From the NCBI RefSeq assembly GCF_036226445.1, contig NZ_CP108474.1:3906001-3970000 (forward strand): a stretch of DNA of 64,000 nucleotides. Direction: 5' to 3'. This stretch comes from Streptomyces sp. NBC_01255 (GTDB lineage Bacteria > Actinomycetota > Actinomycetes > Streptomycetales > Streptomycetaceae). Made by a program: the position numbers and the translations under genes. Position 1 is the first letter of the stretch. Each line of letters begins with the position of its first letter. The notes beneath the pieces are model-generated. The model was given only the letters and a program-made list of their open reading frames with translations, was not told the origin of the DNA and did not search any database. Positions 3,714 through 17,269 of the stretch are shown piece by piece.

Positions 3714-4460
3714 CTACGCGGACATCGCGTCCTGCACGAGCCGTTTCATGAGCGGGGACGGCTCGACCGCCAACTCGCTGCGCAGCAGCCGCCGGTACTC
3801 CTGGTAACGCTTCACCGCGCAGGCCCTGTTGCCCTCGGCCAGGAGGATCTCGATGAGGATGCGCTGCGCCGTCTCCCGTATCGGATCGATCTGGGCGGCG
3901 GTCAGCGCGGTCTGGAGGGCCGCGAGGTACTCCCCTTCCCGCTGGAGCCGCTGGGCCAGGCCCTCCAGCGCGTGCAGGCGCACCTGGTCCCAGCGCTCAC
4001 GCTCCGGTACGAGCCACTCGTCCGGCCAGCGGGGCAGCAGTTCCTCCCCGAGTCTGGCCGTGAGGCCCTCGGGGTCGGCGGGCGGCGGGCCGTCGCCGAC
4101 CGCGTCCTGCGCCAGGCACCGCACCTGGTGCAGGTCCACGTCGACCAGGGGCGCGAGCCGCAGGCGGCGGTCCACGCACTCCACCGTCGTCAGGGGCCCC
4201 GCGCGCCGCCCGTGACACAGCGCGGTCCGGAGGTTCGCCGAAGCCCGGCTCGGGCTGCAGTCGGGCCACAGCCGCTCGGCTGCCGCACCCCGGTACACGC
4301 CGGCCGTATGCACGGCGAGAAGCGCCAACAGGCGCTGAGCTCCCGAAGGGAGGGGAATACGGCATCCGGCGTACGAGAGCTCGAAAGCACCGAGCAGTTC
4401 GAGGTATACGCCGTTCGATGACACATCCCTCACTGTGCAACCGGCCGGTGCATCACGCAT
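3714..4460 (-). CDS. Small SARP-family transcriptional activator
   Basis: This 248-residue protein has the two-domain layout of a minimal Streptomyces antibiotic regulatory protein. A winged helix occupies about 18-95 (YLELLGAFELSYAG, then PLPSGAQRLLALLAV), and a helical BTAD domain about 100-245 (DVDLHQVRCLAQ; RILIEILLAEGNRACAVKRY). There is no NB-ARC or TPR extension. It diverges from the PatA/PatG-like protease gene, and heptad repeats at 11-bp spacing in the shared region face that gene. The inference is that it activates the peptide cluster. The start is uncertain: GTG codons 9 and 12 codons further in are alternatives. Confidence 0.85.
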   Translation of the reverse strand: MRDAPAGCTVRDVSSNGVYLELLGAFELSYAGCRIPLPSGAQRLLALLAVHTAGVYRGAAAERLWPDCSPSRASANLRTALCHGRRAGPLTTVECVDRRLRLAPLVDVDLHQVRCLAQDAVGDGPPPADPEGLTARLGEELLPRWPDEWLVPERERWDQVRLHALEGLAQRLQREGEYLAALQTALTAAQIDPIRETAQRILIEILLAEGNRACAVKRYQEYRRLLRSELAVEPSPLMKRLVQDAMSA

Positions 4461-4596
4461 CCGCGCATCCCGCCGTCATCCCCCCTGACTTCGCCCCTGT
4501 TTTCGGCCCCGGCCGCGCTTTCCCGACACGATCCGCGAGCCGCGGGTCCTGCGGATCCACCGGCCTGACCGGTGGGCAGACGTCTCAGGGCACGCC

Positions 4597-4625
4597 CCGG
4601 AAATGGTCCGGAAACGCTCCGGGGA
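4597..4625 (+). promoter_or_regulatory. Putative SARP-binding heptad repeats upstream of the PatA/PatG-like gene
   Basis: CCGGAAA (4597-4603), CCGGAAA (4608-4614) and CCGGGGA (4619-4625) form three direct repeats at exactly 11-bp spacing. Known SARPs bind heptameric direct repeats at one-turn spacing, just upstream of a -10 box. The array lies 110 bp before the protease ATG and beside a divergent SARP gene. I could not pick out a clear -10 hexamer downstream. Confidence 0.65.
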
Positions 4626-4735
4626 CGCCGCTTGCACATTCCGGGTGACGGAGCGCCGACGAGGCCCCCGGAGAGTCGGAGCAAGACGTTCTTCCGCAGC
4701 CGCCGGTGCCCACGGGCACGGAAAGCAGGTCGGGA

Positions 4736-7108
4736 ATGAAGGCTCGGGCGATTCTCGGGGACCTCGGCGCACGGCACGACCAGCCGTTCGGGGATCCACG
4801 CGTCTGCGTGGCCCTGCTCGACGGGCCGGTCGACCTGTCCCACCCCTGCTTCGCGGGCGCCGAACTCACCCGACTGCCGACGCTGGTACAGGAACCCGCG
4901 GGGCAGGGGCCGATGTCCCGGCACGGCACGCACGTCGCCAGCCTGGTCTTCGGCACCCCCGGCACATCCGTCACGGGGCTCGCCCCGCGCTGCCGCGGAC
5001 TGATCCTGCCGGTCTTCCGCGACGGCGGCGACGGCCGGGTGCCCCAGCTCGACCTGGCCCGCGCCATCGAACAGGCCGTCGAGGCGGGAGCGCACGTCAT
5101 CAACATCAGCGGCGGCGAACAGGCCGCGGACGGGTCTGCGGACCCCATCCTCGACCGCGCCCTGCGGCTGTGCGAGGACCGCGGTGTCCTCGTCGTGTCC
5201 GCCGCCGGGAACGACGGGGCCGACACCGTCCAGGTACCGGCCGCCGTCCCCTCCGTCCTGGCCGTCGGCGCCGCCGCGGCCGACGGCCGGCCGCTCGACA
5301 TCAGCAACTGGGGTGCGGCCTACCGCGCCCACGGGATCCTCGCCCCGGGGCAGGACATCGAGGGCGCCGCTCCCGGCGGCGGCCTCGCCCACCTGACGGG
5401 AAGCAGCTTCGCCACCCCCCTCGTGGCCGGCACGGCCGCCCTGCTCGTCGCCGCCCAGCTGGCCGGCGGCGGGGCGGCGGACCCGAGGGCCGCCGGGCAG
5501 GCGCTGCTCTCGACGGCCACCGCCCCCGACTGCGCCGACCCGGACGCCCCGGTCTGCCGCCGCGGGCTCGGCGGGAGCCTGGACGCCGTCCGGGCGCACG
5601 CCCTCATCACCACCAGGAAAGAGGAGACAGCCGTGACCACTCCCGCAGCCGCCCCCACGCCGTCCGAGGCCCCGGCGCCGAACGTCGCCCCGGCCGCGTA
5701 CGAGACCCCCGCGTCGTACGGGACACCCGCCGCGCCCGTACCGGCGGCCCCACCCGTACCGGCGGGCATCACCGCCGACGGCGAGGCCCTTCCCCCGCCT
5801 CCGGTCCCGCCCGCGCCTCCGGCACTGGCACCGGCCCAGGTCCAGACGCCGGCATCGGCACCGGCACCGGCACCGGCTCCTGCCGCCCAGGCCCCGGCCC
5901 CTGTTCAGGCCGCCCCGGCCCAACCGATACCGTCTGCGCCCCCAGTTCACGCCCCCCACACCACGACAAGCGCCGGGGTACGCCCTGCCTGTGGCTGCGG
6001 CGGCGACCCGGCCACGTGCAACTGCGGAGGCGGAGGCGGTGCGTTCCCCCGTCCGTTGATCTACGTCATCGGCACCATCGGCTTCGACTACCCGACCGAG
6101 GCGCGCCGGGACAGCTTCCGGCAGCAGATGCCGTACGTCGACGCGACGATCGACGGCAAGGTGGTCGAGCAGAGTCCGGACCCGTACAGTCCCCGCCAGC
6201 TCCGCGACTACCTCGCGACCTCCCCCTGGGTCTCCGACAAGGTGACCTGGACTCTCACCATGGACGGCGCCACGGTGTACGCGCTGGAGGCCGAGCCTTC
6301 CGCCGGCATGGACTGGAGCGAGCCACTGGTCCCTCCGGTGGAAGCCCAGCGCGCCCGCAAGGCGCCGGACCGGATCGCCACCGAGCAGGGCAAGACCGAC
6401 ACCGACCTGTTCCGCCTCTTCGCCAATCCGCCGGTCTCGACGGTCTACCGGGTGTTCCGCGACGCCGTCGCGGGCCAGGCACTCAACCCGGACGACCCCG
6501 CCGAACGCGACGGATACATCTCCCGTGTCTCCGTACCCGGTGTCCTCACCAACCGCACCACTCGCCTCTACTCCGGTCAGATCGTGCCCGTGGTCGAGGT
6601 GAAGAGCCGCGGTCTGTACACGTGGAACGAGGCAGCGCTCGTCGACCTCGTCTTCGACCAGGTCAAGAAGGACACCGACGCCCCGCCGGTGGCCGACAAG
6701 AAGCAGGCCAAGGTCCAGCTCCGCGACGAGGAGGACCTGAAGCTGACGATCCGGGCCCTCCTCGACAAGATCTACTACCAGTTCCGCAACCTCGGCCAGA
6801 CCTCCGCCGACCGCGCGCTCAACTTCATGGGCACCAACGCCTTCCTGTTCGGCGACAAGATCGCGGAAGGCCTGCTGTCCGCGAGCAAGGTGCCGGGTTC
6901 CACCAAGAACCTCTACGCGCTCGACACCATCACCGTCGCCAAGAGCCCGTACTGCAGGGTCGGTTCGGACTGCCAGGACGTGACCGTGACCTTCTACGAC
7001 CCCGAGGACGAACGCAGGTCCCGGCTCTCGTACCTGTTCACCATCGACGTGAGCGACGAGCTGCCGGTCACCCTCGCCCCGGTCCACACGTTCCTCGGCT
7101 CCTTCTGA
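4736..7108 (+). CDS. PatA/PatG-type subtilisin-like peptide maturation protease
   Basis: The protein has 790 residues. Residues 20-285 are an S8 subtilase with the full triad: Asp29 (VALLDGPVDLSH), His63 (RHGTHVASL) and Ser224 (TGSSFATPLVAGTAA), plus the oxyanion Asn in SAAGNDG. Residues 300-420 are a Pro/Ala linker ending in a Cys-rich knot (CGCGGDPATCNCGG). From RPLIYVIGTIGFDYPTEAR to the end it matches the C-terminal domain of cyanobactin proteases PatA and PatG. There is no signal peptide. ATG 4736 has CAGG 6 bases upstream. In cyanobactin systems such proteases cut or macrocyclise precursor peptides; the candidates lie directly downstream. An internal start at 5633 may yield the C-terminal part alone. 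Confidence 0.85.
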   Translation: MKARAILGDLGARHDQPFGDPRVCVALLDGPVDLSHPCFAGAELTRLPTLVQEPAGQGPMSRHGTHVASLVFGTPGTSVTGLAPRCRGLILPVFRDGGDGRVPQLDLARAIEQAVEAGAHVINISGGEQAADGSADPILDRALRLCEDRGVLVVSAAGNDGADTVQVPAAVPSVLAVGAAAADGRPLDISNWGAAYRAHGILAPGQDIEGAAPGGGLAHLTGSSFATPLVAGTAALLVAAQLAGGGAADPRAAGQALLSTATAPDCADPDAPVCRRGLGGSLDAVRAHALITTRKEETAVTTPAAAPTPSEAPAPNVAPAAYETPASYGTPAAPVPAAPPVPAGITADGEALPPPPVPPAPPALAPAQVQTPASAPAPAPAPAAQAPAPVQAAPAQPIPSAPPVHAPHTTTSAGVRPACGCGGDPATCNCGGGGGAFPRPLIYVIGTIGFDYPTEARRDSFRQQMPYVDATIDGKVVEQSPDPYSPRQLRDYLATSPWVSDKVTWTLTMDGATVYALEAEPSAGMDWSEPLVPPVEAQRARKAPDRIATEQGKTDTDLFRLFANPPVSTVYRVFRDAVAGQALNPDDPAERDGYISRVSVPGVLTNRTTRLYSGQIVPVVEVKSRGLYTWNEAALVDLVFDQVKKDTDAPPVADKKQAKVQLRDEEDLKLTIRALLDKIYYQFRNLGQTSADRALNFMGTNAFLFGDKIAEGLLSASKVPGSTKNLYALDTITVAKSPYCRVGSDCQDVTVTFYDPEDERRSRLSYLFTIDVSDELPVTLAPVHTFLGSF
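5621..5635 (+). promoter_or_regulatory. Internal ribosome binding site and in-frame GTG inside the protease gene
   Basis: GAGGAG (5621-5626) lies 6 bases before a GTG (5633-5635) that is in frame with the protease, at residue 300. The surrounding bases (AGGAAAGAGGAG) resemble the sites in front of the downstream peptides (for example AGGAAAGGAG at 7351). It falls exactly at the junction between the subtilase domain and the linker. Confidence 0.5.
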
Positions 7109-7155
7109 GACTCCCGTCCTGAGACTCCCGTCGACCACCGAGAGGAGACACCGCG

Positions 7156-7338
7156 ATGGACACCCGACGCAACCGCCCGGGAGCCATGCCGCTCCAGGCC
7201 CGTCCCGTCCAGCGTGACGGCCCCGAGGCCGGAGCCCGTGACGCCCGTACCGGCGTCGCGGCCGCCAAGTCCTCCTGCGCCACCATGACCGGCCCGGCCA
7301 GGCAGATGTGCTACGCCCAGTACGGCGTGGCCGGCTGA
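7156..7338 (+). CDS. Candidate precursor peptide 1 (two-Cys core)
   Basis: This 60-residue peptide has AGAGGAG-type ribosome binding 10 bases before the ATG. It shares a block with the next two peptides: PVQR, then PEAG, then AAA at residues 35-37. After AAA comes a 23-residue tail with two Cys (SSCATMTGPARQMCYAQYG) ending VAG. The layout suggests leader plus core with cleavage near AAA, and the neighbouring PatA/PatG-type protease is the obvious candidate to do it. No modifying enzyme for the Cys residues is encoded nearby. The role as a precursor is inferred. Confidence 0.6.
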   Translation: MDTRRNRPGAMPLQARPVQRDGPEAGARDARTGVAAAKSSCATMTGPARQMCYAQYGVAG

Positions 7339-7354
7339 CCGGAGCCTTCGAGGA

Positions 7355-7773
7355 AAGGAGAGCACCATGTTCGACGAGACCCACACCACCCCCGAGGCCG
7401 GCGGCGAGACGCCGCGCCGGTCCACCGCCGGGCAGCTCCGGCTCCAGCTGCCCCAGCAGTCCGCACCCGTCCAGCGCGGCAAGCACCCCGAGGGTGGCGA
7501 CACCTCCGGCGGCGCGGCGGCCAACGGCCTGCTGGGCAGCCTGCTCGGCGACATCATCCCGTTCTGACGGGCTCACGCCCCGCAGCGGGAGACGAAAAGG
7601 AAGGAGAGCACCATGTTCGACGAGACCCACACCACCCCCGAGGCCGGCGGCGAGACGCCGCGCCGGTCCACCGCCGGACAGCTCCGGCTCCAGCTCCCCC
7701 AGCAGTCCGCACCCGTCCAGCGCGGCAAGCACCCCGAGGGTGGCGACACCTCCGGCGGCGCGGCGGCCAACGG
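7355..7773 (+). repeat. 173-bp tandem duplication carrying the leader of twin peptides
   Basis: Positions 7355-7527 and 7601-7773 are identical except for two silent changes. Each copy contains the AAGGAGAGCACC ribosome binding site and 53 codons. Similarity drops sharply immediately after, at the last 13 codons of each peptide gene. The repeat period is 246 bp. Confidence 0.9.
7367..7567 (+). CDS. Candidate precursor peptide 2 (hydrophobic core)
   Basis: This 66-residue peptide starts with a strong AAAGGAG site. Residues 1-53 are identical to peptide 3: an acidic start, then QLRLQLPQQSAPVQRG, PEGG and GGAAAN. The final 13 residues, GLLGSLLGDIIPF, are amphipathic and contain no Cys. A conserved leader with a variable C-terminal core is the hallmark of ribosomal peptide precursors. 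The penultimate Pro recalls the Pro preference at cyanobactin macrocyclisation sites, but no AYDG-type follower is present. A linear amphipathic peptide is equally possible. Confidence 0.65.
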   Translation: MFDETHTTPEAGGETPRRSTAGQLRLQLPQQSAPVQRGKHPEGGDTSGGAAANGLLGSLLGDIIPF

Positions 7774-7813
7774 GTTCCTGGGCGGCCTCCTCAGCGAGAT
7801 CCTGCCGATCTGA
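7613..7813 (+). CDS. Candidate precursor peptide 3 (hydrophobic core, twin of peptide 2)
   Basis: This 66-residue peptide duplicates peptide 2 with an identical 53-residue leader and the same AAGGAG site. The core is GFLGGLLSEILPI, which keeps the amphipathic pattern, one acidic residue and the penultimate Pro of its twin. Only hydrophobic or small residues are exchanged. The pair could act together like two-peptide bacteriocins or simply be two substrates of one protease. Both readings are inference. Confidence 0.65.
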   Translation: MFDETHTTPEAGGETPRRSTAGQLRLQLPQQSAPVQRGKHPEGGDTSGGAAANGFLGGLLSEILPI

Positions 7814-7886
7814 GACCTGAGCCACCCGGCGGGACCGGTGCCGGGGCAGGCACCCGGCACGGTCCCGCCCGATCCGAGGAAGCACC

Positions 7887-8117
7887 ATGCGACTCGATCT
7901 GCCGAAGCCGGCACCGGCGGTGGACCGGCGGGAGCACTACCCGCCGTACCGCTTCGTCGTCACTTTCGTGGACGTCAACAAGGTGGAGCAGCACGTGCAC
8001 GTCCAGCCGCGGGGCAACTTCGGGAGTCTGCCCGGGGCCCCTGCGCCGGTCGTGCACAGCTACGGCCGCGGTTGGCAATGCGCCCCGACGGGTTGCCGGT
8101 GGAACGGCGTCCTGTGA
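7887..8117 (+). CDS. Small cluster protein, possible fourth peptide
   Basis: This 76-residue protein has a CGAGGAAG site 5 bases before the ATG. It begins MRLDLPKPAPAVDRRE, which weakly recalls the PVQR motif of the other peptides. The middle is beta-like (YRFVVTFVDVNKVEQHVHV). The end is Gly/Pro/Trp-rich with two Cys (WQCAPTGCRWNGVL). It has no signal peptide. It may be a precursor with a C-terminal Cys hairpin or an accessory binding protein. No family was recognised. Confidence 0.55.
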   Translation: MRLDLPKPAPAVDRREHYPPYRFVVTFVDVNKVEQHVHVQPRGNFGSLPGAPAPVVHSYGRGWQCAPTGCRWNGVL

Positions 8118-8190
8118 GGGATGGGGGAAAGGGAAGGGGACGGTCCGCCCCACCGGCGGCCCGTCCCCGCAGGAAGGAGCCGAGACCACC

Positions 8191-9513
8191 ATGGCCACAC
8201 TCAGGTCGGCCGTCTCCTGGCCGAACGACAAGACATATCTCTTCTTCGACGACGACACCTACGACCGGTACGACTCGGTCACGGGCCTCCGCGAGGACTC
8301 CGGACTGCCTCTTTCCAACTGGCCCGGCCTCCCCCGCTCCCCCGACGCCTTCGTCTGGTGGGGTGCGGGCAAGGCGTACGCGTTCACGGGGAGCACGTAT
8401 CTCCGCTACGACAACCTCTCCGACCGCGTCGAGCCCGACTACCTGCCGCCCAACCCGCCGTTCACGGTCGAGGCCGGCTGGCCCGGTCTGCCCACCGGCG
8501 CGGGCGGCGGAACCGACTGGCGTACCGGCGTCGACGCGGCCGTGAACTGGGGAAACGGCAAGGTGTACCTCTTCAAGGGCGACTCCTACGTGCGGTACGA
8601 CGTCACCGCCGACCGGGTCGACCCCGACTATCCCCGCCCTATCGCGGGCAACTGGACCGGGCTCACCCCCGACGGTGTGGACGCCGCCGTCCACCCGGGC
8701 GGCCGGTTCGCGTACTTCTTCCGCGGCGGGCAGTTCCAGCGCTTCGACGTGGACACCGACCGGGTGGACGCGAGCGGTCCTCTGGACGCCTCCTTCCGTC
8801 TCGCGCCCACCCCCTCCGGGGCCCTGGCCCCGGCCCGCCTGCTGACCCCCACCCAGGCGAACAAGCTCATGGCCGACCTGATCCGACGCGGCAAACTGAC
8901 CCTGAAGAGCCCGGCGTTCGTCGACGGGCCGGCCGGGATCGTGGCGCCGGCGCCCGGCCAGCGGGTCGTGGTGAGCCCACCGTCGTTCGGCGGCATCCGC
9001 TACACGAACCAGATCAACCCGGCGTCCGCCGTCATCGACAACCTCGACCAGCGCATGCTGATCGCGCTGTACCGGCTCACCCTCTGGATCAACTCGTCGG
9101 CACCGGACGTCACCGAGCTGCTCCACCTGGGCATCGGGCACGGAAACGGCCCGGCGAACGACTGCCACAACGAGGGCCGGGCGCTCGATCTCTCCGGCAT
9201 CCTGGGTACGTCGGGCGGGGCGGCCTTCACGCGGTCGGTGAAGACGCACTGGGGCAACCTGCCGCGCCCGCCCGGTGTCACGGTCCGCATCGACCCGGCC
9301 GTGGACCCACTGGGGTTCGGGCTGTTCTCGACCGCCTTCCGGTACGCCACGTACGAGTGCGAGGCGAACGGCATCGGGCCGGCCAACAAGTGGCCCATGC
9401 CGGACCTCGGCGGCAGCGGCTTCGTGATCTACCCGGACTACGGCGGTACGGTCGCGCTGCGCAACGCCCACCAGGACCACTTCCACATCCAGGTCGGCGT
9501 GACCCGCAGCTGA
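8191..9513 (+). CDS. Hemopexin-repeat protein with M15-like zinc peptidase domain
   Basis: The protein has 440 residues and a GGAAGGAG site upstream. Residues 5-205 hold four hemopexin-type repeats, one propeller's worth (KTYLFFDDDTYDRYD; KAYAFTGSTYLRYD; KVYLFKGDSYVRYD; FAYFFRGGQFQRFD). Residues 220-440 resemble D-Ala-D-Ala carboxypeptidase/VanY enzymes: HNEGRALDLSG supplies a His-x6-Asp pair and HQDHFHIQ the third zinc His. No signal peptide is present, so it is probably cytoplasmic or exported by another route. It is the last gene of the peptide cluster. It might trim the peptides or be an effector; both are inference. Confidence 0.7.
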   Translation: MATLRSAVSWPNDKTYLFFDDDTYDRYDSVTGLREDSGLPLSNWPGLPRSPDAFVWWGAGKAYAFTGSTYLRYDNLSDRVEPDYLPPNPPFTVEAGWPGLPTGAGGGTDWRTGVDAAVNWGNGKVYLFKGDSYVRYDVTADRVDPDYPRPIAGNWTGLTPDGVDAAVHPGGRFAYFFRGGQFQRFDVDTDRVDASGPLDASFRLAPTPSGALAPARLLTPTQANKLMADLIRRGKLTLKSPAFVDGPAGIVAPAPGQRVVVSPPSFGGIRYTNQINPASAVIDNLDQRMLIALYRLTLWINSSAPDVTELLHLGIGHGNGPANDCHNEGRALDLSGILGTSGGAAFTRSVKTHWGNLPRPPGVTVRIDPAVDPLGFGLFSTAFRYATYECEANGIGPANKWPMPDLGGSGFVIYPDYGGTVALRNAHQDHFHIQVGVTRS

Positions 9514-10333: not shown

Positions 10334-11260
10334 GTGACCAATGAAGTGAAGGAAAGTTTCACGAGCGAGGCGCCTGCCGCGCCCCCCGCGCCCGCCGCCC
10401 TCGCGGCCAAGGTGCGGACCCTCGCGCCCTCCATGACCCGCTCGATGCAGCGGGTCGCCGAAGCCGTCGCCGGCGACCCCGCCGGCTGCGCCGCCCTCAC
10501 GGTCACCGGCCTCGCCGAGCTCACCGGCACCAGCGAGGCGACCGTCGTCCGCACCGCCCGGCTCCTCGGCTACCCCGGCTACCGCGACCTGCGCCTCGCC
10601 CTCGCCGGCCTCGCCGCACAGCAGCAGTCCGGCCGCGCGCCCGCCGTCACCGCCGACATCGCCGTCGACGACCCCGTCGCCGACGTCGTCGCCAAGCTCG
10701 CCTACGACGAGCAGCAGACCCTCGCCGACACCGCCGCCGGACTCGACACCGTCCAGCTCGGCGCCGCCGTCGCCGCGCTCGCCACCGCCCGCCGCATCGA
10801 CATCTACGGCGTCGGCGCCTCCGGACTCGTCGCCCAGGACCTCGGCCAGAAGCTGCTCCGCATCGGCCTGATCGCGCACGCCCACAGCGACCCGCACCTC
10901 GCCGTCACCAACGCCGTACAGCTCCGCTCCGGCGACGTCGCCATCGCCATCACCCACTCCGGCTCCACCGGCGACGTCATAGAGCCGCTGCGGGTCGCCT
11001 TCGACCACGGCGCCACCACGGTCGCGATCACCGGCCGCCCGGACGGCCCGGTCACGCAGTACGCCGACCACGTCCTGACCACCTCCACCGCCCGCGAGAG
11101 CGAACTGCGCCCCGCGGCCATGTCGTCCCGGACCAGCCAACTCCTGGTCGTGGACTGTCTGTTCACCTGCGTCACCCAGCGTACGTACGAGACGGCGGCC
11201 CCTGCCCTCGCCGCCTCGTACGAAGCCCTCGCCCACCGCCACTCGCCCCGGACCCGCTGA
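10334..11260 (+). CDS. MurR/RpiR-family transcriptional regulator
   Basis: This 308-residue regulator has an N-terminal HTH_6 domain (about 30-105; MQRVAEAVAGDP, then LTGTSEATVVRTARLLGYPGYRDL). A sugar-phosphate-binding SIS domain follows (about 140-280; DIYGVGASGLVAQDLGQKLL and AITHSGSTGDVIEPL). Its position immediately before murQ and the PTS gene suggests it senses MurNAc-6-phosphate and controls this operon. GTG 10334 has no clear Shine-Dalgarno, so the transcript may be leaderless; the in-frame GTG 10346 is an alternative. Confidence 0.88.
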   Translation: MTNEVKESFTSEAPAAPPAPAALAAKVRTLAPSMTRSMQRVAEAVAGDPAGCAALTVTGLAELTGTSEATVVRTARLLGYPGYRDLRLALAGLAAQQQSGRAPAVTADIAVDDPVADVVAKLAYDEQQTLADTAAGLDTVQLGAAVAALATARRIDIYGVGASGLVAQDLGQKLLRIGLIAHAHSDPHLAVTNAVQLRSGDVAIAITHSGSTGDVIEPLRVAFDHGATTVAITGRPDGPVTQYADHVLTTSTARESELRPAAMSSRTSQLLVVDCLFTCVTQRTYETAAPALAASYEALAHRHSPRTR

Positions 11261-11346
11261 CCGTTCGCGCAGACCACCCGCCCGCCGAGCGTCACACGTC
11301 GACCGCCAACGACGCCGACGACGTCCACGCACCGAAAGAGCCGCAC

Positions 11347-12291
11347 ATGTCCACCTCCGCCACGTCCGCCACCTACTCCGAGCTCCGCGCCCAGCTGGCC
11401 ACCCTCACCACCGAGGCGTTCCGCCCCGAGCTCGCCGAGATCGACCGGCTGCCGACCCTGGACATCGCCCGGACCATGAACGGCGAGGACCAGACCGTCC
11501 CCGCCGCCGTGGCCCGCCAGCTCCCCGCCATCGCCGCCGCGATCGACGCCACGGCCGCGCGCATGGCACGCGGCGGCCGGCTGATCTACATGGGCGCCGG
11601 CACCGCGGGCCGCCTGGGCGTCCTCGACGCCAGCGAGTGCCCGCCCACCTTCAACACCGACCCCTCCGTCGTCGTCGGCCTGATCGCGGGCGGCCCCTCC
11701 GCCATGGTCAAGGCCGTCGAAGGCGCCGAGGACTCCAAGGAGCTCGCGGTGAAGGACCTGACCGCGCTCGGGCTCACCGCCGACGACACCGTGGTCGGCA
11801 TCTCCGCCTCCGGCCGTACCCCGTACGCCATCGGCGCCGTCGAGCACGCCCGCGCGCACGGCGCGCTGACCATCGGCCTGTCCTGCAACGCGGACAGCGC
11901 GCTCGCCGCCGCCGCCGAGCACGGCATCGAGGTCGTCCCCGGCCCCGAGCTCCTCACCGGCTCCACCCGGCTCAAGGCCGGCACGGCCCAGAAGCTCGTC
12001 CTCAACATGATCTCGACCATCACGATGATCCGCCTCGGCAAGACCTACGGAAACCTGATGGTCGACGTCCGGGCCTCCAACGAGAAGCTCCAGGCCCGCT
12101 CGCGGCGGATCGTCGCCCTCGCCACCGGTGCGCCGGACGAGCAGATCGAGGCCGCCCTCGCCGCCGCCGACGGGGAGGTGAAGAACGCGATCCTCATGAT
12201 CCTCGCCGACATCGACGCCCCCACGGCCGCGAGTCGCCTCACCGTCTCCCAGGGTCACCTGCGTGCGGCGCTGCACGCGACGACCACCTGA
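11347..12291 (+). CDS. murQ: N-acetylmuramic acid 6-phosphate etherase
   Basis: This 314-residue cytoplasmic lyase cleaves the D-lactyl ether of MurNAc-6-phosphate to give GlcNAc-6-phosphate and lactate in cell-wall recycling. Diagnostic segments are RLIYMGAGTAGRLGVLDASE and VGISASGRTPYAIGA in the SIS domain, then LTGSTRLKAGTAQKLVLNM, which is near-invariant in MurQ. GAAAGAG precedes the ATG. The product feeds the nagA pathway encoded at 36 kb. It lies between its regulator and the PTS transporter, consistent with one operon. Confidence 0.95.
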   Translation: MSTSATSATYSELRAQLATLTTEAFRPELAEIDRLPTLDIARTMNGEDQTVPAAVARQLPAIAAAIDATAARMARGGRLIYMGAGTAGRLGVLDASECPPTFNTDPSVVVGLIAGGPSAMVKAVEGAEDSKELAVKDLTALGLTADDTVVGISASGRTPYAIGAVEHARAHGALTIGLSCNADSALAAAAEHGIEVVPGPELLTGSTRLKAGTAQKLVLNMISTITMIRLGKTYGNLMVDVRASNEKLQARSRRIVALATGAPDEQIEAALAAADGEVKNAILMILADIDAPTAASRLTVSQGHLRAALHATTT

Positions 12292-12326
12292 CACCCCCAC
12301 CCCCGCACAGCAAGGCCCACCGCACC

Positions 12327-13847
12327 ATGAGCAATGACGACAAGAACCGCGCCATCGCCGCCGCGATCCTCCCCCTCGTCGGCGGCGCCGAGAACATCTC
12401 CTCGGTCGCCCACTGCATGACCCGCCTCCGGCTTGGCCTGCGTGACCGCTCCCTCGTCCAGGACCAGGCCCTCAAGGCCCTGCCGTCCGTGATGGGTGTG
12501 GTGGAGGACGACACGTACCAGATCGTCCTCGGCCCGGGCACCGTCGCCCGCGTGACCCCCGAGCTCGAAGCCCTGGTGGCCGCCGCCCCTCAGCCCGTCC
12601 ACACGGCCGAGGACCTCGCCGCCCAGGGCGCCGCCCTGAAGGCCGCGCAGAAGCAGAAGAACGCCACCCCGTTCAAGCTCTTCCTGCGCAGGATCGCGAA
12701 CATCTTCGTTCCGCTGATCCCCGCCCTCATCGGCTGCGGCATCATCGCCGGCCTCAACGGCCTGCTGATCAACCTCGGCTGGCTGCCCGGCGTCACCCCC
12801 GCCCTCGCGGCGATGGCGAGCGGCTTCATGGCGCTCATCGCGGTCTTCGTCGGCTACAACACGGCCAAGGAGTTCGGCGGCACCGCCATCCTCGGCGGCG
12901 CGGTCGCGGCGATCATCGTCTTCCCCGGCGTCGCCAAGATCGACGCCTTCGGCCAGACCCTCTCCCCCGGCCAGGGCGGCGTACTCGGCGCACTGGGCGC
13001 GGCGATCCTCGCCGTGTACGTGGAGAAGTGGTGCCGCCGCTGGGTCCCCGAGGCCCTCGACGTCCTCGTCACCCCCACCCTCACCGTCCTCATCTCGGGC
13101 CTCGTCACCATCTTCGGCCTGATGTTCGTCGCCGGTGAGATCTCCACCGCGATCGGCGAGTTCGCCAACTGGCTCCTCGCGAACGCGGGCGCCGGAGCCG
13201 GCTTCCTCCTCGGCGGTCTCTTCCTCCCGCTCGTGATGCTCGGCCTGCACCAGGCCCTGATCCCGATCCACACCACGCTCATCGAACAGCAGGGATACAC
13301 GGTCCTCCTCCCCATCCTCGCGATGGCGGGCGCCGGCCAGGTCGGCGCGGCCATGGCCGTCTACCTCAAGCTCCCTCGCAACGGCTCCATCCGCCGCACC
13401 ATCAAGTCCGCCCTCCCGGCCGGCTTCCTGGGCGTCGGCGAGCCCCTGATCTACGGCGTCTCGCTCCCCCTGGGCCGCCCGTTCATCACGGCCTGCGTCG
13501 GCGGCGCCTTCGGCGGCGGCTTCGTCGGCCTCTTCAGCATGCTGGGCGACTCGGTCGGCTCGACCGCGATCGGCCCGTCGGGCTGGGCGCTCTTCCCGCT
13601 CCTCGACGGCAACAAGGGCCTCGGCGAGACGATCGCGATCTACGCGGGCGGCCTGCTCGTCGGCTACGCGGCCGGATTCGTCGCCACGTACTTCTGGGGC
13701 TTCAGCAAGGAGCTCCTGGAGGAGTTCGACGTCGACACGGAGGCGGCGACGGCCTCCGAGGTGACGGTGGCGGCGGGCGGACCGACGCCGACCGCGACGA
13801 CCCCGACCACTCCGACCACTCCGGAGCCGGAACCGGCGAAGGTCTGA
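12327..13847 (+). CDS. murP: PTS EIIBC transporter, probably for MurNAc
   Basis: This 506-residue protein starts with a EIIB domain (residues 1-90) whose phosphorylated Cys is C30 in SVAHCMTRLRL. An EIIC domain of about ten helices follows (about 110-480; NIFVPLIPALIGCGIIAGL and GFLGVGEPLIYGVSLPLGRP). No EIIA is attached, so a separate Crr-type EIIA must serve it. Co-location with murQ and an RpiR regulator points to MurNAc uptake. The C-terminus is a Thr/Pro tail. A strong hairpin follows the stop. Confidence 0.88.
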   Translation: MSNDDKNRAIAAAILPLVGGAENISSVAHCMTRLRLGLRDRSLVQDQALKALPSVMGVVEDDTYQIVLGPGTVARVTPELEALVAAAPQPVHTAEDLAAQGAALKAAQKQKNATPFKLFLRRIANIFVPLIPALIGCGIIAGLNGLLINLGWLPGVTPALAAMASGFMALIAVFVGYNTAKEFGGTAILGGAVAAIIVFPGVAKIDAFGQTLSPGQGGVLGALGAAILAVYVEKWCRRWVPEALDVLVTPTLTVLISGLVTIFGLMFVAGEISTAIGEFANWLLANAGAGAGFLLGGLFLPLVMLGLHQALIPIHTTLIEQQGYTVLLPILAMAGAGQVGAAMAVYLKLPRNGSIRRTIKSALPAGFLGVGEPLIYGVSLPLGRPFITACVGGAFGGGFVGLFSMLGDSVGSTAIGPSGWALFPLLDGNKGLGETIAIYAGGLLVGYAAGFVATYFWGFSKELLEEFDVDTEAATASEVTVAAGGPTPTATTPTTPTTPEPEPAKV

Positions 13848-13850
13848 CAG

Positions 13851-13902
13851 GGGTACGGGAAGGGCCCGGGCGGCACATGCCACCCGGGCCCTTCCCGTAC
13901 CC
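13851..13902. terminator. Bidirectional terminator between murP and the aminopeptidase gene
   Basis: The arms 13851-13875 and 13878-13902 are complementary over 25 bp with a single mismatch (GGGTACGGGAAGGGCCCGGG at the base). They sit between two converging genes, 3 bases after the murP stop and 8 bases before the other gene's stop. Confidence 0.9.
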
Positions 13903-13909
13903 GTGGTCG

Positions 13910-15457
13910 TCATCGGCAGAGAACGTCCTCCGACGGCCGGACACCCTCGGTCAGATAGCGGGTCACCGCCGCGTCACCGCAGGCGTTCCCGTTGCCCAAG
14001 TAGACCCCGTGCCCGCCGTGGTCGACGGAGACGAGCCGCGCCCGCTGGCCGAGGGCCTCCCGCATCCGCAGCCCCTTGGAGTACGGCGTGGACGGGTCGC
14101 GCAGGTTCTGGATCATCAGGATGTTGGACGGCCCCCGGTCGGTGATGCGGACCGGCTTCTCCACCGCCCCGCCCTTCCAGAAGGAGCAGGGCGTGATGTT
14201 CGCCGGCATCCCCGCCGTCAGCGGGAACCGCTCCCGGTCCTTCGCCACGGCCCGCTCGTACGCCGGTACGGACGCGGGCCAGTTCACGTCGTTGCAGATC
14301 ACGCCGACGGTGATGGCCGCCGCGTCGTCCGGCATCGCACCGGCCAGCTCGCGCGGCAGCACCGGCTCGCCCTTCGGGTCGAGCGCCTCCGTCACCATCT
14401 GCGCGAAGGACGGGAAGAAACCGTCGGAGTAGAGCGCGAGCTGGAGCGCCTGGAGCAGCATGGACCCGGTGAGCGGGGGCCCGGGGGTCACGGGCGCACC
14501 CGGCGCGCCGGGCAGCACGGAGGCATGCGGCTCCCGGTCGAGCCGGCCCGCGAGGTCCATGAGCACAGCCCGTACGTCCTCGGGCCGCTCCGCGAGCCGC
14601 AGCCCCTCGACCGCCCGGTCGGGGTGCGCCGCCCAGGCCGCGAAGTCCGGGAAACGGTCCTCGGCGCCCTGCGCCATGCCCTCCAGCCAGCCCCGGGCGA
14701 CCCGCTTCGGGTCCGGGTCGTTGCTGCTGTCGAGCACCCAACGGTCCGTACGCCCGGGGAACTTCTCCGCGTACGAGGCCGCCACGTACGTCCCGTACGA
14801 CACGCTCCACGCCGACAGCTCCCGCTCGCCGAGCGCCTGCCGCAGCCGGTCCATGTCCCGCACCTGGTTGGCGGTGGTCAGCCCGCGCAGCATGGCGCCG
14901 CCGTTGCGGGCGCAGGCCTCGGCGACCCGCTTCGAGCGGGCGATGTTCTCCTCGACGCCCCCGTCGGCGCTCGGCCACGACCGCAGCGTCATCATCCACC
15001 GGTCGCCCTCGTCGAGGCCGCACCGCGCCTTGGCGGAGCCGCCGATCCCACGTGGGTCGAAGGCCACGAGGTCGTACGCCCCGTCCATCTCCTTCGCCAG
15101 GACGGCACCCTTCTGCGCCAACCGCTGCACCCCGGAGCTGCCGGGCCCGCCCGGGATCACCATCAGGGTCCCGCGCCGCGCCTCGGGCCGCGTGCTGGGC
15201 AGCCGGGAGACGGCGAGCTGGATCTGCTCCCCGTCGGGCCGGGCGTAGTCCAGGGGTACGGAGAGCATGGCGCACCGCTGTCCGGGCAGCGGCCGAAGGG
15301 CCGGGGCGCAGTCACCCCACGCAAGCCCGGCGCCGGCCCCGCCGGTGGCGGCAGTGGCGGCAGCGGCGGTGGCACCGCCTCCGGAGAGAGCGGCACCGGC
15401 GACGGCGGCGGCGGAGAGGGCGAGGACAAGCGTCTTGCGTCCACGGTTCGTTGTCAT
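13910..15457 (-). CDS. Secreted tripeptidyl aminopeptidase-like alpha/beta hydrolase
   Basis: This 515-residue protein has a signal peptide (RGRKTLVLALSAAAVAGAAL) and an alpha/beta-hydrolase fold. PGGPGSSG gives the oxyanion region, WSVSYGTYVAA the nucleophile Ser, and DHGGHGVYLGN the catalytic His. A TAP-like C-terminal segment follows (PSNILMIQNLRDPSTPYSKG). Such S33-family enzymes of streptomycetes release N-terminal tripeptides from exported proteins or scavenge peptides outside the cell. ATG 15457 is chosen over 15493 because it starts just before the positively charged n-region. Confidence 0.88.
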   Translation of the reverse strand: MTTNRGRKTLVLALSAAAVAGAALSGGGATAAAATAATGGAGAGLAWGDCAPALRPLPGQRCAMLSVPLDYARPDGEQIQLAVSRLPSTRPEARRGTLMVIPGGPGSSGVQRLAQKGAVLAKEMDGAYDLVAFDPRGIGGSAKARCGLDEGDRWMMTLRSWPSADGGVEENIARSKRVAEACARNGGAMLRGLTTANQVRDMDRLRQALGERELSAWSVSYGTYVAASYAEKFPGRTDRWVLDSSNDPDPKRVARGWLEGMAQGAEDRFPDFAAWAAHPDRAVEGLRLAERPEDVRAVLMDLAGRLDREPHASVLPGAPGAPVTPGPPLTGSMLLQALQLALYSDGFFPSFAQMVTEALDPKGEPVLPRELAGAMPDDAAAITVGVICNDVNWPASVPAYERAVAKDRERFPLTAGMPANITPCSFWKGGAVEKPVRITDRGPSNILMIQNLRDPSTPYSKGLRMREALGQRARLVSVDHGGHGVYLGNGNACGDAAVTRYLTEGVRPSEDVLCR

Positions 15458-15594
15458 GCGCACAGCCTCGTGCAGCGGTCCCGTCCGCCCCATCCGGCAG
15501 GCACGCGGGCCGAGCGTGGGGACAACCCCCGCCCGGAAGGGGGGCGTACGGCCCCGCTCGGAGCGAAAGCGGGCGTTCGGGGGATGATCACCGC

Positions 15595-16524
15595 ATGACC
15601 TCCCACGACACCACTCCCGCCACCACTCCCCCCGGCACCTGGGCCCTCGGCGGCGACCTCGTCGTCAACCGGATCGGGTTCGGCGCCATGCGGCTGCCCC
15701 AGCGTGGCGAGGCACTCATCGAGAACGCCGTACCGCGAGACCGCGCGGACGCGATCGCCGTCCTGCGCAAGGCCGTCGAGCTCGGGGTGAACCACATCGA
15801 CACGGCGGCCTTCTACTTCTCGCCGCTCCGCTCCGCGAACGAGCTGATCAACAGCGCGCTCGGCGGCCCGTACCCCGACGACCTCGTCATCGCCACCAAG
15901 GTCGGCCCCTGCCGCGACTCCTCCGGCGCCTGGAGCGAGCACGCCCGCACCCCCGCCGCGCTGCGCGCGCAGGTCGAGGAGAATCTGCGCCAGCTCGGCC
16001 GCGACCACCTCGACGTCGTCAACCTCCGCGTCCTCGGCACCGATTCGATCGCCGAACGGTTCGGCGCCCTCGCCGAGCTCCGCGAGGCCGGCCTCATCCG
16101 CCACCTCGGCCTCTCCAACGTCACCCCCGACCACCTCGCCGAGGCGCAGTCGATAGCCCCGGTCGTCTGTGTGCAGAACATGTACGGGATCGGGGTCCGC
16201 CCCGAGTACGAGGATTTCGTCCGTCTCTGCGGCGAGCAGGGCGTCGCCTTCGTCCCCTTCTACGCGATCGCCGCCGCCGGTGGCCAGGGCGGAGCGACCG
16301 CCCCCGAGAGTCCCGAGGTCCTCGCCGTCGCGAAGGCCCACGGGGCGACCCCCGCCCAGGTCCGCATCGCCTGGACCCTCCACCAGGGCCCCCACCTGCT
16401 CGCCATCCCCGGCACCGGCGACCCCGCCCACCTCGCCGCCAACGTCGAGGCGGGCGCCCTCCGCCTGACCCCCGAGGACCTGACCCTCCTGAACGACCTG
16501 CACCGCACACCTCAGGCAAAGTGA
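15595..16524 (+). CDS. Aldo/keto reductase
   Basis: This 309-residue TIM-barrel oxidoreductase starts with VVNRIGFGAMRLP. The catalytic Asp, Tyr and Lys are in VNHIDTAAFYF and VIATKVG. The usual active-site His on strand 4 is replaced (DVVNLRVLG), as in some AKR subgroups. NADPH-binding residues are suggested by IPGTGDPAHLAANVEA. The substrate is unknown. Only 4 bases separate it from the next gene, so the two are probably co-transcribed. Confidence 0.88.
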   Translation: MTSHDTTPATTPPGTWALGGDLVVNRIGFGAMRLPQRGEALIENAVPRDRADAIAVLRKAVELGVNHIDTAAFYFSPLRSANELINSALGGPYPDDLVIATKVGPCRDSSGAWSEHARTPAALRAQVEENLRQLGRDHLDVVNLRVLGTDSIAERFGALAELREAGLIRHLGLSNVTPDHLAEAQSIAPVVCVQNMYGIGVRPEYEDFVRLCGEQGVAFVPFYAIAAAGGQGGATAPESPEVLAVAKAHGATPAQVRIAWTLHQGPHLLAIPGTGDPAHLAANVEAGALRLTPEDLTLLNDLHRTPQAK

Positions 16525-16528
16525 CCCC

Positions 16529-17269
16529 ATGACGACCACACCCGGCCACACCGCACCCTCCCCGCGCACCGCCGCCGACCTGGCGCCCACCGGCACCCTG
16601 CGTGCGTCCGTCAACCTCGGGAACCCGGTCCTCGCGCAGGGCACGCCCGACGCCCCCTCCGGGATCACGGTCGACCTCGCGCGGGAGTTCGGCGCGCGGC
16701 TCGGGCTGCCCGTCGAGCTCCTCTGCTTCGACGCGGCACGGAAGTCGTTCGGGGCGATGGCGGACGGCCGGGCGGACCTCTGCTTCCTGGCGGTCGATCC
16801 GGCGCGCGAGAAGGAGGTCGCGTTCACGCCCCCGTACGTCGTCATCGAGGGCGCGTACGCCGTGCCGCGCGACTCGGCGATCAGCACGGTCGCGGAGGTG
16901 GACGCCCCGGGTGTCCGGATCGGCGTCAAGCAGGGCTCCGCGTACGACCTGTTCCTCTCCCGCTCCCTCGCCCACGCGACCGTCGTGCGCGGCGACGAGG
17001 GCGTCGACGTGTTCCGCGCCGAGGGTCTTGAGGCCGGCGCGGGCATCCGGCAGCCGATGGCCGCGTACGCCGCCGCGCATCCGGAAGTCCGGCTGCTCGA
17101 AGGGCGGTTCATGGAGATCCGGCAGGCCGTCGGGACGACCGTCGGCCGCCGGCCCGAGACCGTCGCGTTCCTCCGCGACACCGTCGAGGAGCTGAAGGCG
17201 AACGGCTTCGTCGCCGCCTCCCTGCGCCGCGCGAGCCAGGATCCGGCGCTCCTGGCCCCGCCCGCGTAG
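16529..17269 (+). CDS. Solute-binding-protein fold (SBP_bac_3-like) without signal peptide
   Basis: The 246 residues follow the amino-acid-binding protein pattern: GTLRASVNLGNPVLAQG, GITVDLAREFGARLGLPVEL, RADLCFLAVDPAREKEVAFT and GVRIGVKQGSAYDLFL. The start MTTTPGHTAPSPRTAADLAP contains no hydrophobic segment, lipobox or Tat motif, and no in-frame upstream extension offers one. No ABC permease is adjacent. It may be a cytoplasmic ligand sensor or an enzyme-like derivative of this fold. It follows the aldo/keto reductase by 4 bases. Confidence 0.75.
   Translation: MTTTPGHTAPSPRTAADLAPTGTLRASVNLGNPVLAQGTPDAPSGITVDLAREFGARLGLPVELLCFDAARKSFGAMADGRADLCFLAVDPAREKEVAFTPPYVVIEGAYAVPRDSAISTVAEVDAPGVRIGVKQGSAYDLFLSRSLAHATVVRGDEGVDVFRAEGLEAGAGIRQPMAAYAAAHPEVRLLEGRFMEIRQAVGTTVGRRPETVAFLRDTVEELKANGFVAASLRRASQDPALLAPPA

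Follow-up and report, generated by a model that had tools for sequence, protein, structure and literature searches.

The window analysed here is a 64,000-nucleotide stretch of Streptomyces sp. NBC_01255 (contig NZ_CP108474.1, positions 3,906,001 to 3,970,000), and its positions 3714 to 9513 appear to carry a ribosomal peptide cluster of cyanobactin ancestry in which one PatA-like subtilase, with no macrocyclase, cuts small precursors and frees linear cores, probably under the control of a SARP-type regulator. We put the probability of this reading at roughly 70%. The arrangement would be a macrocyclase-less form of the cyanobactin-type cluster and, in our view, a new one in actinobacteria. A sequence-only reading of the same DNA had reported a SARP gene, a subtilase with an intact triad fused to a PatA/PatG-type C-terminal domain, four short genes preceded by ribosome binding sites, and a hemopexin protein. 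All of these are present, as seen from the BTAD domain, the D39/H73/S234 triad, the TIGR03895 match, and the PF00045 repeats. Its proposal of a distinct actinobacterial branch in which proteolysis is the main maturation step is also supported. The protease gene and its landmarks are as follows.

4706 to 7108, plus strand: PatA-type subtilase with PatA/PatG C-terminal domain (TIGR03895); alternative in-frame ATG start at 4736
4820 to 4822, plus strand: catalytic Asp39 of the intact triad
4922 to 4924, plus strand: catalytic His73 of the intact triad
5405 to 5407, plus strand: catalytic Ser234 of the intact triad
6059 to 6355, plus strand: PatG_D domain PF18047, 30.1 bits (cut-off 27)
6725 to 7093, plus strand: PatG_C domain PF18065, 112.1 bits (cut-off 25.9)

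The encoded protein scores 531.6 bits against the NCBIfam TIGR03895 PatA/PatG model (cut-off 421.05), which is the match that the sequence-only reading had named as a check on its C-terminal domain, and PF00082, PF18047 PatG_D and PF18065 PatG_C all lie over their Pfam cut-offs. Compared with solved structures, the catalytic domain reaches 298 bits for PatA, 297.6 bits for PagA (PDB 4h6v/3zxx, 298/297 bits), and only 156 bits for PatG, and at the sequence level the C-terminal domain resembles the PatG-DUF structure 4uvq. To test this measure, we scored both proteases of L060, an actinobacterial locus with both kinds; they give 332/328 bits with PagA/PatA versus 154 bits with PatG for one and 275/248 bits versus 218 bits for the other. 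In the predicted fold of the protease from a relative, L073, PatA ranks first, with a Foldseek identity of 55% to PatA versus 32% to PatG, and 4uvq is the only match of its predicted C-terminal domain at an E value of ≤0.001. The Asp-His spacing of 34 residues in the window protease is the same as that of the PatA-like L060 member, versus 39 residues in its PatG-like partner. Based on these comparisons, the catalytic domain is classed as PatA-type. The protease is probably cytoplasmic, since no signal peptide is obvious by eye. We retained 814 homologues at an E value of ≤1e-20 among 7995 candidates scored, and the best 120 of the 814 are named either S8 family serine peptidase or cyanobactin maturation protease PatG family protein. 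The linker directly before the C-terminal domain (5990 to 6025) holds a CxC...CxC cysteine pattern (CGCGGDPATCNC), which is also seen in six relatives and is a possible metal site.

The four short peptide genes of the sequence-only reading are present, but they represent three classes, with two genes both in class II (precursor b is 91% identical to precursor a).

7156 to 7338, plus strand: class I precursor, with motif PLQARPVQR at 7189 to 7215, site GVAAA at 7252 to 7266, and predicted core KSSCATMTGPARQMCYAQYGVAG at 7267 to 7335
7367 to 7567, plus strand: class II precursor a, with motif LPQQSAPVQR at 7448 to 7477, site GAAAN at 7511 to 7525, and predicted core GLLGSLLGDIIPF at 7526 to 7564
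7613 to 7813, plus strand: class II precursor b, with motif at 7694 to 7723, site GAAAN at 7757 to 7771, and predicted core GFLGGLLSEILPI at 7772 to 7810
7887 to 8117, plus strand: class III peptide, with motif LPKPAPAVDR at 7899 to 7928 near the N-terminus and C-terminus RGWQCAPTGCRWNGVL, without a GVEA-type site

Each of these open reading frames has a ribosome binding site, and all three classes carry an xPxQx(x)PVxR-like leader motif. The strict form of the motif is found in 4 of the 137 small open reading frames of the window that follow a ribosome binding site, and these are exactly the four peptide genes; 1.1 are expected by residue shuffling. In relatives, class I precursors are ~60 residues long, with a C-x10-C core that includes a well-conserved TGxARxMCYA stretch. 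Among 75 class I homologues (a count that leaves out P0305, in which a piece of the protease runs in frame into class I), all 75 have C-x10-C, 74 have the leader motif, and 8 have the canonical G[LV]E[AP]S. The majority residue frequency falls from 0.83 in the core to 0.76 in the leader motif, 0.48 in the spacer, and 0.41 ahead of the motif, so that the core is the best-conserved segment of the class I precursor. Class II precursors are ~66 residues long, with a hydrophobic C-terminal core of mostly 13 to 23 residues; 113 of 115 homologues have the leader motif and 11 have the canonical G[LV]E[AP]S. Directly before the class II core, 74 of the 115 have G[LV]E[AP][SND] and another 24 have a GAAA[SN]-like variant. 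The GVE[AP][S/N/D] sequence that directly precedes the core in classes I and II of the relatives resembles the recognition consensus of PatA, G(L/V)E(A/P)S (PMC10885120). In the window this site is eroded to GVAAA (class I) and GAAAN (class II), with loss of the glutamate.

Class II also includes sub-families that hardly vary, such as LPILPLLGLAGSAIGSLFD and its close variants in several strains. The class II cores are hydrophobic, with a net charge of 0 or -1 in 90 of 114. The idea that they are clearly amphipathic helices was rejected: in a test from which one core of fewer than 9 residues was left out, only 48 of 114 beat their shuffles at p<0.05 (median p, 0.069). A PDB search with class II gave nothing relevant. 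The shorter class III members have the motif near the N-terminus, and the C-terminal part of class III shows DPAP-like and often RGWxCxP...CxW stretches. Precursor homologues, among the matches listed, are named hypothetical, uncharacterized, or unnamed. The class I alignment (A1) leaves out L059, L068, and L074, which were found later. From the class II alignment (A2) an identical second L059 copy was dropped, as were an additional gene from each of L069, L070, and L071, L073:6242-6475 with its odd C-terminus, and the L074 member.

In the mechanism that we propose, the single PatA-like subtilase would recognise precursors that have the xPxQx(x)PVxR-like leader motif and cut after the GVE[AP][S/N/D]-type site (GVAAA or GAAAN in the window), freeing a core that runs to the natural C-terminus. 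The predicted products are a linear class I 23-mer with two cysteines (C-x10-C, which may form a disulfide) and the two class II 13-mers GLLGSLLGDIIPF and GFLGGLLSEILPI. Class III, with a motif and no site, could serve either as a third substrate or in an accessory role. The calculated masses are [M+H]+ 1314.767 and 1328.782 for the class II cores and [M+2H]2+ 1190.021 for oxidised class I, and a macrocyclised form would weigh 18.01 Da less than the linear one. Our guess is that the products are membrane-active or surface-active peptides with an extracellular role, which might fit better than that of a cationic antimicrobial because the class II cores are hydrophobic and near-neutral.

The protease and the peptide genes occur together. 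The sequence-only reading had named co-occurrence of protease homologues with the short genes as a further check, and in the single-protease loci with downstream sequence, each with one TIGR03895 protease, classes I, II, and III each follow the protease in all 16 (of which 13, 15, and 16 loci, respectively, supplied members of the profile used). Five related loci came from a genome-contig search; L037 and L039 repeat L058 and L069 and are left out of the counts. Among 392 genomes of the genus, 13 have a TIGR03895 match at an E value of ≤1e-40: ten belong to the single-protease type (the frame being broken in G224), G089 and G104 have two proteases each, and G191 has the C-terminal domain only. 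Class II (E<1e-10) is found in exactly the ten single-protease genomes and in none of the 382 others (best other match, 7e-5), and class I (E<1e-10) is found in the same ten genomes and in G038 (next best, 2e-4). Independent of profile construction are the lack of matches in the remaining 382 genomes, class I in L059/G067, L068/G210, and L074, class II in L074, and the G038 match. Named strains such as Streptomyces tanashiensis JCM 4086 (L035) have close copies of the cluster, and L058 is from Streptomyces sp. NBC_00572. In a tree of 38 proteases, 31 that are of single-protease loci or of unseen neighbourhood (17 of the 31, the P proteins, are of the latter kind) are separated from the seven that belong to two-protease loci, with support of 88/100 and in 90% of bootstrap trees. 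L036, L061, L062, L066, L069, L076, and one L077 protease are left out of the tree as short or uncalled by the gene finder.

Kinship with cyanobactin precursors is seen in class II. The sequence-only reading had held that the usual partners of PatA and PatG are absent. There is indeed no YcaO gene nearby, with the sole YcaO match of the genome ~2.3 Mb away, but a PatE-like precursor is present, and the statement that there is no PatE does not hold: class II matches the anacyclamide/piricyclamide (PirE) precursor model TIGR04446 in its leader half, below the cut-off, and relatives bear the PatA site. The two class II precursors of the window score 14.8 and 14.3 bits against a curated cut-off of 35 (E value of 0.028 for precursor a), over profile positions 8 to 32 of 51 only; by comparison, 15 of 33 class II sequences match, the best with an E value of 1.9e-5 and an estimated ~25 bits. 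The four precursors tested from two-protease loci (two from L060 and one each from L063 and L075) all reach profile position 48 to 51, including the FAGD-type follower. Since the window match stops at 32 and the two-protease precursors reach 48 to 51, the leader half is common to both and the follower half is absent from the single-protease precursors.

The two-protease cyanobactin-like actinobacterial loci are L060 (G089), L063 (G104), L075 (G685), and L076/L077 (G690/G745). They share with the window PatA/PatG family proteases and, in L060, L063, and L075, PirE-like precursors, which there end in FAGDDAE or FAGDSDE. They differ in having no class I or III genes and no SARP gene beside the protease; profile searches found classes I and III and SARP in 0 of 5 two-protease loci. 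Class II matches there are marginal (4e-4 in L060 and 9e-5 in L063). L060 also has a hemopexin-repeat gene among its precursors.

Cyanobactin clusters have two proteases, A and G, and were known only from cyanobacteria according to a 2015 review (PMC4663559). In the Streptomyces genome, a search found no TIGR03895 match over the cut-off other than the one protease of the window. YcaO is also absent from the anacyclamide, prenylagaramide, and piricyclamide clusters (PMC4663559), and the special trait of the Streptomyces cluster is the absence of the G protease, not the absence of YcaO. With the anacyclamide and piricyclamide (acy/pir) clusters it shares a PatA-type protease with C-terminal domain, the leader motif (the sub-threshold PirE match), the lack of a heterocyclase, and, with some of them, several small precursors. 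The acy/pir clusters add a G protease for macrocyclisation, a recognition sequence at the C-terminus, and cores that are hypervariable, whereas the Streptomyces cluster has one protease, a core at the C-terminus, a conserved class I core, and a SARP-type regulator. Hypervariability is ascribed to cyanobactin cores in general (PMC4603692, PMC4663559), and the class I core differs in being the best-conserved part of its precursor. PatA of the patellamide pathway shares the catalytic domain and, with the relatives, the G(L/V)E(A/P)S leader site, but it hands its product to PatG, which the Streptomyces cluster lacks. Linear end products such as we propose are known from the aeruginosamides and viridisamide, which are of 3 to 5 residues and are prenylated and methylated (PMC4663559).

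Several points weigh against the reading of a one-protease cluster that frees linear cores. The peptides, their cleavage, and their expression are all predicted. Because the PatA-site glutamate is lost, the cut position in the window is read by alignment with relatives; 17 of the 115 class II homologues fit neither site pattern, and alignment of relatives gives no recognisable cut site in class III. None of 13 class I sequences matches the cyanobactin precursor models, and the amphipathicity of the hydrophobic class II cores is modest. Co-occurrence is partly by construction, with all ten positive genomes having given rows to the class II profile and eight of the ten (not G067 and G210) to the class I profile. 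Finally, the 88/100 support for the protease branch falls short of the 95/80 at which the tool itself counts a branch as firm.

The sequence-only reading had allowed for transpeptidation, in which the protease would both cut and cyclise its substrates, as PatG does, to give head-to-tail macrocycles. PatA and PatG belong to the same superfamily and TIGR03895 spans both, but the catalytic domain is nearer PatA in bit score and, in L073, in Foldseek identity, and its Asp-His spacing is that of the PatA-like and not the PatG-like L060 protease. Patterns for the C-terminal (PatG) recognition sequence (AYD, SYD, AYE, and [FY]AGD), which a signal of another kind would escape, are found in 0 of 115 class II homologues; of the 75 class I homologues two have such a pattern, in each case within the spacer that precedes the core. 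Macrocyclisation is unsupported because no recognition sequence was found after the core and the enzyme is without PatG likeness, and we consider it very unlikely. Alternatively, the short peptides could have a docking motif in common with the protease but regulate, inhibit, or chaperone it rather than be its substrates, which would account for a class III that keeps the motif without a cut site and for a class I core that is strongly conserved, unlike the cores of cyanobactins. That the cores of classes I and II in the relatives are immediately preceded by the published recognition sequence of PatA speaks for substrates, and we regard such non-substrate roles as quite unlikely.

Another explanation is that this is a degenerate cyanobactin cluster that has lost PatG and its other partners and is disappearing. 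The PatA site is eroded in the clade of the window, a decayed copy is known (L079), and the protease and SARP genes of L069 are frame-broken. Against this, the one-protease architecture recurs in two genera of a single family and, lacking SARP, in a genome from a second family (L074), and conservation peaks in the class I core (0.83, versus 0.41 to 0.48 outside the core and leader motif). The ratio of nonsynonymous to synonymous substitution rates (dN/dS) is <1 in all peptide-gene pairs compared (0.33 to 0.92, and 0.16 to 0.26 for the protease domain), which points to moderate selection on the peptide genes as proteins. Classes I and III, not being found in the five two-protease loci, are not simple leftovers of those loci. 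We consider degeneration unlikely, and the one-protease cluster with linear products remains our preferred reading.

A more speculative extension of this reading, which we hold only tentatively and think doubtful, is that the cluster represents a separate one-enzyme class of ribosomal peptides, that xPxQx(x)PVxR is a docking signal read by the PatA/PatG C-terminal domain, and that the conserved class I and II products act jointly as a multi-component extracellular system of Streptomyces and Kitasatospora. The C-terminal domain would be the natural reader of the motif because the motif alone is common to the three peptide kinds and the protease is the sole recurrent maturation enzyme. The fold predictions would count against such docking, as a weak test. 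When the L073 protease was read through its stop into the class I gene and folded as one chain, the leader motif had a predicted local distance difference test score (pLDDT) of <50 and did not dock, and in a refold of the L073 C-terminal domain with class I and a better alignment, the motif again had a pLDDT of <50; both were single-chain folds, with 4 and 18 alignment rows containing precursor sequence. The isolated PatG domain showed no binding to a PatE variant by nuclear magnetic resonance, and every cyanobactin pathway characterised up to 2014 is stated to have the PatA/PatG C-terminal domain, to which no role had been assigned (PMC4259220).

If leader docking were true, it would supply a function for a domain that was without one at the time its structure was solved, and a reason why cyanobactin precursors keep the motif. 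Cyanobactin-type maturation would gain an actinobacterial form that has no macrocyclase. With one protease, three peptide kinds, and one leader motif, the system is small, which would make it a clean setting for the function of domain and motif, and it predicts defined peptides with exact masses. We found no description of PatA/PatG-type clusters of the single-protease kind in Streptomyces among the best matches in the open-access literature (titles and beginnings of abstracts, with most subscription journals and bioRxiv outside it), and the main text of the decRiPPter paper mentions no cyanobactin, PatA, or hemopexin.

The remaining features of the cluster are a regulator, its possible operator, and an accessory gene.

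3714 to 4460, minus strand: small SARP-type regulator, PF03704 BTAD 61.1 bits, divergent from the protease gene
4594 to 4627, no strand assigned: SARP operator-like direct repeats GGAAATG / GGAAACG / GGGGACG with an 11-bp period, between the SARP and protease genes
8191 to 9513, plus strand: hemopexin-repeat protein with an M15-like C-terminal part, PF00045 83.5 bits; a common, not universal, accessory

The label SARP is based on the BTAD match and the family profile, since no DNA-binding domain model was among the Pfam domain matches of the 3714 to 4460 protein. A SARP profile match adjoins the protease in 16 of 17 single-protease loci with upstream sequence, L074 being the exception (13 of the loci contributed to the profile, and L062 is not among the 17), and the gene is divergent from the protease in 15 loci and on the same strand in L059. 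SARPs bind direct repeats of this kind. In the window, the best register of the repeats gives 17 of 21 matches (shuffle p, 0.023), with period 12 tying with period 11, and the block can be aligned between the window and 5 relatives. Period 11 is strictly best in 9 of 14 loci and tied in the window, and shuffle p is ≤0.06 in 10 of 14. Against a firm assignment, period 11 is not best in L059, L068, L069, and L071, and the best repeat place in L038 differs in position from that in its close relatives. Based on position and the 11-bp-period repeats, the SARP-type protein likely controls the cluster. In a published SARP example, the heptamers are 10 bp apart rather than 4 (PMC12224297).

The hemopexin/M15 protein of the sequence-only reading stands in its hemopexin repeats, but Pfam recognises no M15 part in the 8191 to 9513 frame, and that assignment is made by an HxxGxAxD plus HxH pattern, which we take to be M15-like. 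The pattern is found in one frame in 6 of 11 loci examined (the window, L035, L038, L058, L064, and L070) and is split over two frames in L069; L059 and L068 have HxH only, and L060 and L074 have neither. We rejected the gene as a core part of the cluster, given a profile match in just 10 of 16 loci. The accessory gene varies: L065 has a trypsin-like peptidase at 12081 to 13706, L067 has a related gene at 11821 to 13983, and L074 has a hemopexin protein with an astacin-like domain at 15147 to 16604.

Several copies of the cluster are altered. L079 (G038:C2:127500-143500) is a decayed copy with broken protease and SARP genes, a class I frame joined to the protease remnant, and a hemopexin/M15 gene that is shortened and has the motif Asp replaced; the remnant has no class II or III match. 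In L069/L039 (G224, S. diastatochromogenes), the protease and SARP matches are split over several frames and the peptide genes are open, which reflects either real decay or assembly errors. L066 (G191) has a stand-alone PatA/PatG C-terminal domain protein at 8035 to 8775, with no protease domain, SARP, or peptide class match within the 18 kb examined. G210 has the cluster twice (L068 and G210:C1:7070354-7073388), in opposite orientation near both contig ends, presumably in terminal repeats. In the window, the region next to the peptide cluster, at 10334 to 13847, encodes an RpiR-type regulator with a SIS domain, a SIS-domain GKRP-like protein that is presumably MurQ-like, and a PTS EIIBC transporter. 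A major facilitator superfamily gene at 1305 to 2702 recurs in 6 of 24 loci (no systematic exporter search was made). The RpiR/SIS/PTS EIIBC arrangement resembles a cell-wall sugar recycling operon, and neighbouring gene families recur in several close relatives.

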